From the NCBI GenBank assembly GCA_903927965.1, contig CAIYPA010000104.1, forward strand, positions 1 through 64,000: a DNA stretch of 64,000 bases, given 5' to 3'. The DNA is from an uncultured Bacteroidia bacterium. GTDB lineage: Bacteria; Bacteroidota; Bacteroidia; Bacteroidales; Prolixibacteraceae. Numbering within the stretch: the first letter of the stretch is position 1; the number at the start of each line of letters is the position of its first letter. Below, in pieces: positions 52,666-58,192 of the stretch. The notes under the pieces are model-generated. The model had not been told where the DNA came from. It saw only the letters and a list, made by a program, of their open reading frames with translations, and made no database searches. Made by a program: the position numbers and the translations under genes.

Positions 52666-55338
52666 TCAATAAGATACATTATCATAGTAACTCTGTCGTT
52701 TGCTGAGCTTTAAGTCCTGAAGCAAGGTTGAAGTAGCCCTGATCGTAAAACTATAACTTTGCCTGTATCCAAAGGGGACCAGGTTTAACGACATTTGCAT
52801 ACAATGTAAGTCCCTGAAAATATTGAATTGGGTAAAAGTGACCTGAAGTTTCTGGACATCAAGTCCCGAGGAAAAACCAATTTTCCATTGTTTTGTCATA
52901 CTGATATTTCCATTGAAATCAACTGTTTGGGTAACAGTTGATGATTTTGTAGGGTCAGGCTTATTGTACCTGAAACTGTAATTAGCTGACAAATCCCATG
53001 GGACACTAAAATCGGCATATTCGGGGATATCACCTGATTTCTGCCTGATTTTAACCATATCTGCCTCATTTCGTTGTTCAGGTGTCAGTTTTTCCTGTTC
53101 TTTTTCCTTCTCTTTCCCCTCCTTCGATTTGAACGACAGTCCAAAAGACATATTTGCACTGGTTAGCCTAGCCAATTGGCCATTGCGCGAAAATTGAAAT
53201 TGATTAATCAAATGACCGTTTTGCATGGCATAAGGATCCAATATCGCACCAAAATTAAGGTCAATCCCGGCAACCTTGGTTCGGGCAGTAATATTGATGT
53301 TTGAGAGGTTCAACGAATCGGCCGCCAGGTTATAAGATCCATTTATCGATAACTGGTCCAAGAGTTTAACCTTGGTAAATGCCTCTTTTGAAACAGTATC
53401 TTTTGTATTTACCATTTTCATTTCCAGGGTATTGTTTATGCCGAATCCAATTGAACCAGCCCGCCCTGCACTGGCAGTTCCGTAAATAGAACCTTCATGT
53501 ATTGGATACCTATAACTTACCGGCAACCCTTTTTCATCAAAATATTCAATATTTTCATACATCCCATATCTGGGAAGGCCGAAATCGGGTTTAAGGCTGA
53601 AACTGATGTTTGGTGTCATAACATGCCTGATCCCCTTGATCCTTGATTTGGGGTTTAATGGCATGAAAGTGCCATAGATTTTTGTGGACGCCCCAACACT
53701 GAACGAATAATCGTAATTTCGGGTAAAGCCATAAATAGTGTCCGAAATCTCTATCTGTTTGGTCGTTGTATTGTACTTCTTCCTGATCTGCTGGGTATAC
53801 CAGCGCTCCCCATAATTGAACGAAGGGCTGATTGTGATGTATTTCAAGGCCTTAAACGAGGTACTGATCGGAATGGTATGTTTGATACCATTTTGCCAGT
53901 TCTTTATCAATGAAGAATTCATCAATTTATTCTCCTTGGTATTGATGGTGTTCTGCATATCCATGGAATAGCTTAAACCTATCTTCTCGTACCATTTCTC
54001 TTTCCCTGAGCGTGTCTTGGATTTAAAAGGGTAAATCCTCGACATATTAAAAGTCATTTGCGGTAGGGTAAGACTTATCGTCGTATCTCGGCTATTTTGG
54101 GAGTGGCGCATATTGGCAGACAATGTAAACGGTGAGTTTTCCCAACGCTTTGCATAGGAGATACTTGATTGCTTTGTATTGGTCAGATAGTTCTCCGTAG
54201 TGTAAGAGTTGTTCTGATCGAAAGAACTGGTTGAAAAATTGACGCTTGCGCTAAAAGTCTGACTTGGACTTGCCTTTGAATCCATTGAATGGCTCCAGGT
54301 AATGGCAAAATCGTTTTGTGTCTTATAATCGGGCAAACCTTTGTCCCCAAAAACATTTTTATAATATTTCAGGTCGAAAGATCCGTTAAATTTATATCGG
54401 AGCCTATAATTGGTATGCAGCTTAATTCCCCTGGAACCCTTGGAATAGAGGTCGCCCTTTACCGAAGCATCGAAGAAATCGTTTGCGGCAAAATAATAAC
54501 CAAAATCACGAAGGAAGAAACCACGGTTGATCTCATCACCGTAGGAAGGCATTAAAAAACCCGATGAATATTTGGGCGAATTTGGGAAAAACCCAAAAGG
54601 GATAAACACAAAATAAAGTGGCAAATCTTCGATCACAAGGTAAGCTGGTCCGGTAACGATCTTCTTGTTTGAAAGAACCTTCGCCTTCGTCATTTCAAGC
54701 CAGAAATGGGGATGTTCAGCATCACAGGTAGTATATTTCCCGTTACGAAGGCAATAGGTCGAATCATTGATCAGTTTAGTCCTGCCGCTATGTACAAACC
54801 CTCCCTCCTGTTCGGTGACAACGCCAGTTACAATCCCTTTTTTTGTTTTAAAATTATAATGGACTTCGTCAGCTTCAAACTCCTGGTCACCCTGTTTAAA
54901 GACAGGTTTACCGGAAATCTTCCCGGTCGAGTCTGGTTTTCCAACTGCGTAAACAAGGTTACTGTCGCGGTTCAGTTCGATATATGCCGCTTTTAGTTCG
55001 ATATCTTTGTACTTCACCTGGGCATTTTTGTACATAATGATCTTGTTGCCCTTGCTATTTTGGATCATCGTGATGTAACCATCGGCGACATATTCCACTT
55101 CAGCATCAAAACCAGCTGCCTCAACCGCGTTCAAACTGTCAGGAACGATAGAGTCCTTTTTCGAAATAAGAAGACTGTCCGGCCGTGCCAGGTTACGCAT
55201 ATTTTTGAGTCCCAGATTTGGAACTTTCTGTTTTTCAACGGAATTAGTCCTACTATTCTCAAGCTTTTGCCCAAAAATAATTCCATGTGCCAGGAAGAGG
55301 ATGACCCCAAGGGAAGATAAAAATCGCAACTTGCTCAA
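52666..55338 (-). CDS. lptD: LptD-like outer membrane LPS assembly protein
   Basis: An 890-residue outer membrane protein. After a signal peptide (LRFLSSLGVILFLAHGIIFG), an OstA-like beta-jellyroll (about 100-260; MYKNAQVKYKDIELKAAYIE, EADEVHYNFKTKKGIV) is followed by a large beta-barrel rich in alternating aromatic strands. This is the Bacteroidota form of LptD, which inserts lipopolysaccharide into the outer leaflet. The start is a TTG at 55336-55338: a stop lies five codons upstream and no ATG is available before residue 47. A TACTTTTG element on the minus strand at 55391-55398 is a plausible -7. Confidence 0.85.
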   Translation of the reverse strand: MSKLRFLSSLGVILFLAHGIIFGQKLENSRTNSVEKQKVPNLGLKNMRNLARPDSLLISKKDSIVPDSLNAVEAAGFDAEVEYVADGYITMIQNSKGNKIIMYKNAQVKYKDIELKAAYIELNRDSNLVYAVGKPDSTGKISGKPVFKQGDQEFEADEVHYNFKTKKGIVTGVVTEQEGGFVHSGRTKLINDSTYCLRNGKYTTCDAEHPHFWLEMTKAKVLSNKKIVTGPAYLVIEDLPLYFVFIPFGFFPNSPKYSSGFLMPSYGDEINRGFFLRDFGYYFAANDFFDASVKGDLYSKGSRGIKLHTNYRLRYKFNGSFDLKYYKNVFGDKGLPDYKTQNDFAITWSHSMDSKASPSQTFSASVNFSTSSFDQNNSYTTENYLTNTKQSSISYAKRWENSPFTLSANMRHSQNSRDTTISLTLPQMTFNMSRIYPFKSKTRSGKEKWYEKIGLSYSMDMQNTINTKENKLMNSSLIKNWQNGIKHTIPISTSFKALKYITISPSFNYGERWYTQQIRKKYNTTTKQIEISDTIYGFTRNYDYSFSVGASTKIYGTFMPLNPKSRIKGIRHVMTPNISFSLKPDFGLPRYGMYENIEYFDEKGLPVSYRYPIHEGSIYGTASAGRAGSIGFGINNTLEMKMVNTKDTVSKEAFTKVKLLDQLSINGSYNLAADSLNLSNINITARTKVAGIDLNFGAILDPYAMQNGHLINQFQFSRNGQLARLTSANMSFGLSFKSKEGKEKEKEQEKLTPEQRNEADMVKIRQKSGDIPEYADFSVPWDLSANYSFRYNKPDPTKSSTVTQTVDFNGNISMTKQWKIGFSSGLDVQKLQVTFTQFNIFRDLHCMQMSLNLVPFGYRQSYSFTIRATSTLLQDLKLSKRQSYYDNVSY

Positions 55339-55491: not shown

Positions 55492-56871
55492 ATGGACATT
55501 GCAATGATTAAAGAGAATTTTCAGGTTAAAGTCAGTGGCACATTAAGTACATCGATGTTGCTTATGGTAATTGTTGCAATTATGTTTTGCAACCCGGTTT
55601 TTTGCAAAAACCAACCCAGAAAAGGTCTCGAAACCATTGTAATCGATCCGGGGCATGGTGGGAAAGACCCCGGTGCCGTGGTGGGAAACGCCCGTGAAAA
55701 GGATATAGTGCTGTCTATTGCATTGAATTTAGGCAAATTAATTAAAGAGAGATTACCAAATGTAAAAATAGTCTATACCAGAAGTACGGATGTTTTTATT
55801 CCTTTGTTTGAAAGATCGGTCATTGCCAATAAAAATAATGCAGATCTTTTCATTTCTATCCATGCCAACTATTGCAATACCCCTTCGGTAAAAGGTACCG
55901 AGACCTATGTCTTAGGCCTTCACAGAACAGAAGACAATCTCAATGTGGCTAAAAAAGAGAACAGTGTCATCCTGCTCGAAAAAGATTACACAACCCGTTA
56001 CGAAGGATTTAATCCCAATCTGTCCGAATCTTACATTATTTTCGAATTGATTCAAAACACACACATCGATCAGAGCGTCTTGTTTGCTGGAATTTTGCAG
56101 GATTATTTTAAGGAACACGCCCAAAGGGCAAACCGAGATGTACGGCAAGCCGGTTTTCTGGTTTTGCGTGAAACGGCCATGCCGGGTGTTCTGATCGAAA
56201 CCGGCTATTTGAGCAACCTTTCGGAGGCAAATTACCTCATGACAAACTCAGGAAGGGAAACGCTCGCATTATCTATTTTTAACTCATTTCAATCGTACAA
56301 AGAAAAATATGACTCCCGGCTTAATTTGGCCTCAAACGACCAAAAAACAAATAAAAAGGAGGCCGATACTGCGATTACAGAACACCCACCTATAGAAATT
56401 GTAAAAGAAGTGGAACCTCAACATACAGTGTCGAAGGAAAGGAAAATTAAGGATTCAATTGATAAAAAAAATAAGCCAGATGTTAAAAAGGAGGTCGGAG
56501 CAGAAACAAAACTGATAGTCAAAGAAGAGGTTAAACCAGTCAAAAAAGAGACCAAACAAGAGGTTAAACCAATTGTAAAACAAGAGGTTCTAAAGATTCC
56601 CGTTCAATCTGTGGAGATTACCTTTGCGATCCAAATCGCTGCATCTCTCAAAAAGATTCCTTTGAACTCTCATACTTTTAAAGGGATAGAAAATATTGAG
56701 GAAATCAGCATCGGCGGATATTTCAAATATTATTGCTTCAAAACGGGCTCTTTTACAAAAACGAAACTAAATCTTCAATCAGTCCAATTGAAAGTTCCAG
56801 GTGCCTTCATCGTTGCTTTTAAAGACGATCAGATTGTTTCAATTAAAGAAGCTTTGGATCATAAGAAATAG
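55492..56871 (+). CDS. N-acetylmuramoyl-L-alanine amidase with SPOR-like C-terminal domain
   Basis: A 459-residue Amidase_3 (AmiA/B/C-type) cell wall hydrolase that cleaves the bond between N-acetylmuramic acid and the stem peptide. A hydrophobic N-terminus (MLLMVIVAIMFCNPVFC) is a likely export signal. The catalytic domain shows the zinc ligands in IDPGHGGKDPGAV (His), NAREKDIV (Glu) and FISIHANYC (His), and GVLIETGYLSN carries the catalytic Glu. After ~280 comes a K/E/V-rich linker, then an 80-residue SPOR-like domain (TFAIQIAASLKKIPLNSHTF to the end). A second ATG at 55504 is possible. Confidence 0.92.
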   Translation: MDIAMIKENFQVKVSGTLSTSMLLMVIVAIMFCNPVFCKNQPRKGLETIVIDPGHGGKDPGAVVGNAREKDIVLSIALNLGKLIKERLPNVKIVYTRSTDVFIPLFERSVIANKNNADLFISIHANYCNTPSVKGTETYVLGLHRTEDNLNVAKKENSVILLEKDYTTRYEGFNPNLSESYIIFELIQNTHIDQSVLFAGILQDYFKEHAQRANRDVRQAGFLVLRETAMPGVLIETGYLSNLSEANYLMTNSGRETLALSIFNSFQSYKEKYDSRLNLASNDQKTNKKEADTAITEHPPIEIVKEVEPQHTVSKERKIKDSIDKKNKPDVKKEVGAETKLIVKEEVKPVKKETKQEVKPIVKQEVLKIPVQSVEITFAIQIAASLKKIPLNSHTFKGIENIEEISIGGYFKYYCFKTGSFTKTKLNLQSVQLKVPGAFIVAFKDDQIVSIKEALDHKK

Positions 56872-56902
56872 AATTGTGTTTTTTTTAAACCTTAATCCTG
56901 TG

Positions 56903-56910
56903 TATTTTTG
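56903..56910 (+). promoter_or_regulatory. Candidate -7 element for the MCE gene
   Basis: TATTTTTG matches TAnnTTTG and lies 23 nt before the ATG at 56933. No TTTG partner is found at the expected spacing, so the gene may also be read through from the amidase gene 61 nt upstream. Confidence 0.4.
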
Positions 56911-56932
56911 CATTCAAATTATTAATTAAGAA

Positions 56933-58192
56933 ATGAAGCTCTCAAAAACCTCAAAAATCGGAATTCTGGCGGTCATTTGTCTTACGATCCTGATATGGGG
57001 AATTAATTTCCTCAAAGGAAGGGATTTATTCAGGACAGAAAAGACCTTTTTTGCCCGCTATAAAAATGTTGGCGGGCTCGAAGCAACTACCCTGGTTACA
57101 CTGAATGGATTAAAAATAGGATATGTTCGTGATATCTATTTCGCTGAAGACCTTTCAGGAGATTTAATCGTGAGGATTGCCATTCACAACAATTTTCCAT
57201 TGCCTGTTGGTACATCTGCAGAAATTGCAAGTAGTGACTTATTGGGATCGAAGGTAGTAAAAATAAACCTTGCCAAATCCGATAAACTTCTGCATGAAAA
57301 CGATACTTTGAAAACAAAGATGGCACCCGATATCATGCAGCAGGTCAATGAGCAAATTGCCCCTATAAAAGCAAAGGCCGAGCGGTTGATCGAGAACCTC
57401 GACTCGATCGTTTCAACAGCTTCAAAGATTTTCAACAACGAATCACAACGAAACATTGCTGAAAGTTTCAGGCAAATCAGTCTGACATTGATCAATCTTG
57501 AAAAAATATCAGGCGACCTGAATGAAGTAACTTCAAATCAAAAGAAAAACCTCTCTTCGACAATTACCAACATTAACGATGTTACTGCAAATTTGAAAGT
57601 CAATACCGTTAAACTTGGAAACATCATGGACAATTTCTCCAATTTCAGCGATTCACTTGTCAAACTTGAAGTAAACAAGACGGTTAACCACCTGAATACC
57701 TCTATAACAAATTTACAGTCCATATTAAGCAAAATTGATACTGCCAACGGCACCATCGGGAAACTCGTAAACGATCCATTGTTGTATCAGAACCTTACAA
57801 ATACAAGTGATAACCTCAACCGGTTGCTTGTCGATTTTCGCTTAAATCCGAAACGGTATGTCCATTTCTCAGCTATCGATTTGGGCCGTGAAGTAAACGT
57901 TTCAACCTCTGCAAGTCACCAAACATCTGAAAATCTGATATTTAGAATCCAACTACTCTCTTCACCCAGTCCAATTAACCTTCAATCTCCTCAATTTAAG
58001 GGAATTGACAATGTTTCGGAAGTTAAATTGGGTGACAAATATTATTACTTGACAGAACCAGAATCATCTTACGATAAAGTTAGATTCATTCTAAATAAGA
58101 TACAAAGTGCTTTTCCAGAGGCTATTTTAAAGCCTTACAAAAACGGAAAAGAGATATCTTTAAAAATTGCATTAAAAATGATGAAAAATTAG
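56933..58192 (+). CDS. MCE/MlaD-family protein with SPOR-like C-terminal domain
   Basis: A 419-residue membrane-anchored protein of the mammalian-cell-entry type. A single helix (IGILAVICLTILIWGINFL) at the start is followed by the MCE domain (GLEATTLVTLNGLKIGYVRD, VRIAIHNNFPLPVGTSAEI) and a long helical region (150-330). MlaD-type proteins carry phospholipids across the periplasm. Normal MlaD is shorter; the last ~80 residues (FRIQLLSSPSPINLQSPQFK to the end) resemble the SPOR-like domain of the adjacent amidase. No Mla permease or ATPase gene lies in the window. Confidence 0.88.
   Translation: MKLSKTSKIGILAVICLTILIWGINFLKGRDLFRTEKTFFARYKNVGGLEATTLVTLNGLKIGYVRDIYFAEDLSGDLIVRIAIHNNFPLPVGTSAEIASSDLLGSKVVKINLAKSDKLLHENDTLKTKMAPDIMQQVNEQIAPIKAKAERLIENLDSIVSTASKIFNNESQRNIAESFRQISLTLINLEKISGDLNEVTSNQKKNLSSTITNINDVTANLKVNTVKLGNIMDNFSNFSDSLVKLEVNKTVNHLNTSITNLQSILSKIDTANGTIGKLVNDPLLYQNLTNTSDNLNRLLVDFRLNPKRYVHFSAIDLGREVNVSTSASHQTSENLIFRIQLLSSPSPINLQSPQFKGIDNVSEVKLGDKYYYLTEPESSYDKVRFILNKIQSAFPEAILKPYKNGKEISLKIALKMMKN

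Follow-up and report, generated by a model that had tools for sequence, protein, structure and literature searches.

Does a protein of lipid transport in the Prolixibacteraceae carry a domain that could take it to the places where the cell wall is cut? The question is raised by two neighbouring genes in a 64,000-nucleotide stretch of DNA from an uncultured member of that family (GenBank assembly GCA_903927965.1), referred to here as the window. The window lies on contig C104 of an assembly of 7.57 Mb in 584 contigs, estimated as 98% complete and 4.4% contaminated. From the sequence, the initial annotation claimed that an amidase and the MCE protein encoded behind it (Table 1) end in the same SPOR-like domain, and that this domain could bring the MCE protein to septal glycan. 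The amidase is composed of an N-terminal hydrophobic segment, a catalytic domain at residues 49-265 (Amidase_3, PF01520; E 1.4e-47, profile positions 1-171 of 174), a Lys/Glu-rich linker and the tail in question. The MCE protein begins with an N-terminal hydrophobic segment and an MCE domain at residues 37-112 (MlaD/MCE, PF02470; E 3.5e-12, 46.8 bits against a curated cut-off of 25.1), which are followed by a middle region, an NPKRYVHFSA motif and its own copy of the tail.

Table 1. Positions of the amidase-MCE locus and its divergent neighbour in the window
Feature	Position	Strand	Remarks
LptD protein	52669..55338	-	Divergent neighbour; Pfam LptD_2, E 1.3e-173
Amidase gene (Amidase_3)	55492-56871	+	459 aa; ORF list and profile match
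Amidase coding part without stop	55492..56868	+	N-acetylmuramoyl-L-alanine amidase
Amidase SPOR-like tail	56605..56868	+	Strand-1 Gln and strand-3 Lys at glycan-contact positions
Amidase-MCE gap	56872..56932	+	61 bp; GTANNTTNG-like element at 56902-56910
MCE gene (MlaD-like)	56933-58192	+	419 aa; coding part without stop 56933..58189
MCE SPOR-like tail	57926..58189	+	Gln retained in strand 1; Tyr in place of the strand-3 Lys/Arg; Lys in strand 4

Set beside known proteins, the window amidase is ordinary. As in Amidase_3 enzymes with a C-terminal SPOR domain (CwlC), a catalytic domain is followed by a linker and a SPOR-like tail, and the difference from CwlC-type amidases is that the tail belongs to a Bacteroidota SPOR sub-type which Pfam misses in 19 of 53 cases at E ≤ 1. 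The MCE protein resembles MlaD/MCE proteins of the single-MCE type in its N-terminal hydrophobic segment, MCE domain and long middle region, and the order amidase-MCE is that of Bacteroidota; unlike the usual protein, it continues for about 85-100 SPOR-like residues past the normal end.

The surroundings of the two genes were compared in relatives. Named relatives, among them Mariniphaga, Prolixibacter and Draconibacterium, place the window in the Prolixibacteraceae. Of the named loci that contain the amidase and MCE genes, 63 span 8 kb or more, and all 63 hold a homologue of the window LptD. Named loci were selected for their similarity to the MCE protein, and this and like counts therefore describe a non-random sample. 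Among 137 loci with both genes (some genomes being counted twice), 130 have the amidase and MCE genes on one strand and less than 700 bp apart. Across the window's genus the gap measures 57-68 bp and holds a conserved GTANNTTNG element, of which a reading of the listing gave a GTANNTTNG-like form in 17/17 loci and the exact TANNTTTG in 6/17. Judged by its letters, the element is promoter-like and possibly provides the MCE gene with a promoter of its own. Exact TANNTTTG sites are not enriched in the window (75, with 66 expected by chance).

The shared tail was confirmed by a gapless alignment, by shuffling and by a profile search of the genome. The pairwise alignment that the initial annotation had proposed pairs amidase residues 373-459 with MCE residues 332-418, and over these last 87 residues 28 are identical (32%) and 45 positive (E 2e-10). 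The last 85 residues scored 122; shuffles had a mean of 24.8 and a maximum of 48, and none of 5000 scored as high. Most of the motifs first listed as common to both tails were right. The 'Y-Y', however, comes down to a single invariant Tyr, the runs being offset (KYY versus YYY), and the final 'I-S' is found in the MCE protein but is V-S in the amidase. The similarity of the tails is repeated at the same locus in relatives, and MCE tails were matched to amidase tails by hhalign with 99.9% probability. When the whole assembly was searched with a profile of the two tails, both window tails and one weak match (E 0.09) were recovered; a profile of 53 amidase tails recovered both window tails and one TPR-like protein (E 2.4e-9). 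The tails of the two neighbouring proteins are homologous. The TPR-like match (C129:7746-8012, locus L180) is a third SPOR-like copy in the same genome, at the end of a TPR-looking protein of 442 aa.

The description of the tails as SPOR-like was borne out by their predicted fold together with Pfam matches of their orthologues. In the proposed search with the Pfam SPOR profile (PF05036) the window proteins themselves failed, neither being matched even at E ≤ 10, and orthologues succeeded in part: at E ≤ 1 the profile found 34/53 amidase tails (best 7.9e-8), missing the other 19, and 2/22 MCE tails (best 3.7e-6). A Pfam SPOR scan of the genome marked four other places and not the window tails. 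One of the four, at L001:703-1728, encodes a protein that ends in a SPOR domain and whose N-terminal part we take to resemble the HU-type domains of Bacteroidetes. Nine full-length MCE proteins, selected for tails with both of the contact residues treated below, were also tested. Two of them, close relatives from another family (loci L043 and L086), reached 23.8 and 23.5 bits against the SPOR cut-off of 21; of the other seven, one scored 18.3 bits and six were without SPOR at E ≤ 0.01. Among sequences of solved structures, the best match of the amidase-tail profile was the SPOR domain of CwlC, a Bacillus amidase (E 0.0023), and the 23 matches of the MCE-tail profile contained no SPOR.

Predicted structures of the two tails were compared and gave the same fold for both, so that the unrelated folds which the initial annotation had named as its refutation were not seen. 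Separate AlphaFold2 runs reached a pLDDT of 91.7 for the MCE tail (22 rows) and 91.8 for the amidase tail (53 rows), and both models consist of a strand, a short turn, two strands, a helix, a strand and a C-terminal helix. The four-stranded antiparallel sheet of SPOR domains with two helices on one side (b-a-b-b-a-b) is thus predicted for both tails, with SPOR helix 1 present in both models as a three-residue turn. VIA-align placed CwlC, two RlpA entries, DamX and DedD at ranks 1-5 for both models, with Z values of 6.9, 6.2, 6.0, 5.8 and 4.9 for the MCE tail (first unrelated chain 4.9, a tie with DedD) and 7.6, 6.3, 5.9, 5.8 and 5.7 for the amidase tail (first unrelated chain 4.5). The SPOR domain of FtsN came at rank 28 for the MCE model (Z 4.0). 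Foldseek returned no match at E ≤ 0.001, yet it gave CwlC a probability of 1.00 and a TM of 0.59-0.63; for the MCE tail the unrelated chain 2eky was top by E-value, with a TM of 0.28 against 0.63 for CwlC.

Taken alone, the VIA-align Z values are middling, and the case for SPOR rests on sequence and fold combined. Non-SPOR alpha-beta folds reach Z 4-5 for both models, and together with the tie of DedD this is what would be seen if the tails were unrelated ferredoxin-like domains that have converged. Against this stand the gapless pairwise E value, the 99.9% profile-profile match and the five SPOR chains that come first for both models; on these and the shuffles, chance or convergent similarity was rejected, and unrelated domains are left as a reading of very low probability. 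The MCE tail is described here as a domain predicted to have the SPOR fold. Like the SPOR domains of CwlC, RlpA, DamX and FtsN, both tails are small C-terminal domains with the order b1, b2-b3, helix, b4 in their models, a Gln in the first strand and orthologues of which some match the Pfam profile. They differ from these in the reduction of the first helix to a turn and in the extra C-terminal helix, and the MCE copies differ further in their fusion to an MCE protein and in the absence of the strand-3 basic residue from most of those examined. Because this residue is absent, though it is not universal in SPOR domains, the tail of the window MCE protein is named SPOR-like and not a proven SPOR domain.

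The expectation that such a tail binds septal glycan can be set against the residues which contact glycan in RlpA. In the structure of that protein the polar side-chain contacts are made by Q270, R302, R309 and R311, and, according to the same report, binding occurs mainly by main-chain contacts, the loss of one Arg is tolerated, and the basic patch of SPOR domains is built from different residues in different domains (PMC6895207). The positions of Q270 and R309 were mapped onto the tails by alignment alone. Contacts were counted in 164 tails, which remained of 180 when identical ones were dropped; tails cut by a contig end were excluded. The strand-1 Gln (RlpA Q270) is found in both window tails, in 103/106 amidase tails and in 23/58 MCE tails. 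A Lys or Arg in strand 3 (RlpA R309, FtsN R285) is likewise found in 103/106 amidase tails, but in 9/58 MCE tails, and at this position the window amidase has Lys where the window MCE protein has Tyr. The mean net charge is 5.1 for amidase tails and 2.0 for MCE tails. Judged by these residues, the tail of the amidase appears to be a functional reader of glycan. For the MCE protein the claim of septal-glycan binding survives in part: contacts are kept in some lineages, and binding is doubtful in many because both are kept together in just 9/58 MCE tails, compared with 102/106 amidase tails.

The MCE tails vary by lineage. In the window's genus (n=16), Gln is present in 12/16, Lys/Arg at the R309 position in 0/16 and a strand-4 Lys/Arg in 16/16; all 16 also have a Lys towards the end of strand 2, in alignment column 84, at about the place of R302. 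The strand-4 Lys was considered as a contact like K418 of DamX and set aside, the resemblance being one of motif and the DamX profile alignments being non-significant and ending before strand 4. Other MCE tails of the Prolixibacteraceae have neither Gln nor the strand-3 Lys/Arg (0/18 each); these 18 include loci L073, L075 and L080, which are recorded under other or broader names and are counted here because they fall within the clade of that family in the MCE-body tree. In the 24 tails of other families, Gln occurs in 11 and Lys/Arg in 9, so that nine have both, two Gln alone and 13 neither. Two MCE tails of family code f81, which were found last and stand outside the 58, have both contacts by eye. 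In loci L175, L176, L182 and L183 (f90, f81) a long linker of the MCE protein, rich in Lys and Glu, leads to a SPOR-like tail in which both contacts are present. By their residues, the MCE tails of some families appear to have an intact contact surface; that of the window's genus looks rearranged, and that of the other members of the window's family looks lost. The window tail is intermediate, with Gln kept, the strand-3 Lys/Arg lost and a strand-4 Lys present.

Losses of this kind may point to a different use of the domain. The SPOR fold may have been repurposed, so that the MCE tail would not read denuded glycan but would dock to proteins or cap the ring, with the amidase tail or a partner in the outer membrane as possible targets. 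Both contacts are gone from 18/18 other Prolixibacteraceae tails and from 13/24 tails of other families, and still the strand-3 Tyr (58/58), and the Pro (54/58) and Ala (48/58) that precede strand 4 are conserved in MCE tails and the tail is retained in at least 116 of the 122 matched genomes of the family. Nine of the 58 MCE tails nevertheless have both canonical contacts, the window's genus mostly keeps Gln and carries basic residues elsewhere in the sheet, on strands other than strand 3, and a domain that binds like RlpA, mainly by its main chain, could tolerate the loss of one Arg (PMC6895207). We regard repurposing as the main alternative and a real possibility, at somewhat less than even odds.

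The distribution of the tail was examined in the family, the order and the phylum. In the Prolixibacteraceae, which NCBI places in the Marinilabiliales, an MCE match was found in 122 of 140 genomes, and by reading of the rows the tail is present in at least 116 of the matches listed (in 109 full-length matches, in three proteins of slightly lesser length and in four cases from fragments). Two of the remaining six are complete proteins without a tail (G346, G347), two stop early (G343, G344) and two are ambiguous (G020, G319). The complete tail-less MCE proteins of two genera of the family (loci L173 and L174) are probably losses; the amidase of L173 still has its tail, and no amidase was found in the short stretch of L174. 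In the sample of the order, which we take to be GTDB's wider Bacteroidales, 223 of 247 genomes have an MCE match and the tail occurs in at least 27 genomes and at least 15 family codes (f1, f16, f19, f23, f30, f54, f64, f70, f81, f85, f89, f90, f96, f106 and f115), a lower bound that covers the matches listed and some of the long frames. In the phylum sample (MCE match in 241/345 genomes), the end of the tail was reached, among the matches listed, only by the window's own protein; three matches (G463, G501, G712) get as far as positions 343-364, but only if stop codons are read through, and seven long frames from outside the order (G503, G391, G386, G433, G498, G440, G712) have no C-terminal MCE tail. 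Among the matches listed and frames fetched, the MCE tail was thus seen only within the window's order, and most matched MCE proteins listed from the order and phylum samples are without it.

The amidase tail is widespread in the order, occurs also in loci labelled as Flavobacteriales or as families of that order (L106, L133, L143) and is present where the MCE protein ends near residue 315. As it is wider in distribution than the MCE tail, the tail most likely went from the amidase to the MCE gene, and we infer that it was copied early in part of the window's order. In Sphingobacteriaceae-type loci (L114, L117, L126, L130, L132, L134, L142, L144) the amidase encoded beside the MCE protein stops right after its catalytic domain and has no SPOR-like tail. 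A tree of 143 of the 164 tails, thinned in the window's genus and at three near-duplicate loci, has 7 changes and is compatible with a single origin. A tree of 115 MCE bodies, from which near-duplicates and part of the window's genus were thinned and 19 named loci, mostly of Pedobacter and relatives, were excluded, has at least 11 changes of presence and absence, of which 3 are forced by well supported branches. The MCE tail may have arisen once or several times. Concerted evolution or gene conversion of the tail pairs was rejected as a general explanation: among the 106 amidase tails, the same-locus partner has a median rank of 0.39 (54 pairs). The partner tail ranks first in loci L039 and L040 and near first in a few other pairs, and local conversion or a later copy may have occurred in family code f89.

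Such patchiness on the MCE-body tree, and the complete tail-less proteins of two genera of the family, would also be produced by a passenger, that is, a tail fused by local duplication and drifting without function. A drifting tail would hardly have remained in frame and intact in almost every matched genome of the family, among the matches listed, or have kept its conserved core residues and a confidently predicted fold, and this explanation is judged very improbable.

Lipid transport by an MCE protein also raises the matter of its partners. No MlaE match was found on the window's contig, and the genome has three MlaE: those on C88 and C407 are beside MlaD genes, and that on C287, a contig with no MlaD gene, is accompanied by an ABC ATPase (genes for the MlaE-like permease and the ATPase at L167:2425-3938). 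Since the other two MlaE have an MlaD nearby, the C287 pair is, by elimination, the likely candidate partner of the window MCE protein.

The place of the tail in the protein suggests where it acts. Tail-less MCE proteins of Bacteroidota end at the NPKRYVHFS motif, and the tail is joined directly behind it; it lies behind the usual C-terminal end and would therefore be placed away from the N-terminal membrane segment. The MlaD ring is a hexamer, and in MlaD-type rings several copies stand together. The reading we prefer, with a probability of about 0.5, is that the tail is a SPOR-derived wall tether at the distal end of the MCE conduit, with glycan binding that has been altered and sometimes lost. 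The tail would be positioned at the periplasmic far end of the MCE ring or needle, in six copies if the ring is hexameric, and would tether the lipid conduit to peptidoglycan, preferably where the amidase has stripped peptides from the glycan strands. Contact may still be made by the canonical residues where these appear to remain, in some families; in the window's genus it would go through the kept Gln and basic residues elsewhere on the sheet, and the remaining members of the family probably bind weakly or have replaced this binding. A bolder version for part of the window's order, in which several SPOR-fold tails pin the conduit to glycan newly stripped by the neighbouring amidase and lipid traffic between the membranes is aimed at the sites of daughter-cell separation, is tentative and on the whole unlikely.

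In the literature searched, which was mostly without subscription papers, we found no account of a SPOR-like tail on an MCE protein, including in passages of PMC3355149. The main text of a survey of MCE proteins does not contain the word 'peptidoglycan' (PMC5561183), and MlaD and SPOR proteins are separate entries in a proteomic table (PMC6851124). How envelope lipid transporters are coordinated with remodelling of the wall is an open question. The tail could link the movement of lipids to sites of wall cutting, but the copies of many relatives seem to have lost their wall-gripping residues. A wall-sensing fold in an MCE protein, encoded beside amidase and LptD genes, would constitute a genetically separable module, with the tail on one side and the transporter on the other. 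Moreover, SPOR-like domains with intact, rearranged and lost contacts form a natural series, which may be used to probe what the recognition of denuded glycan requires.
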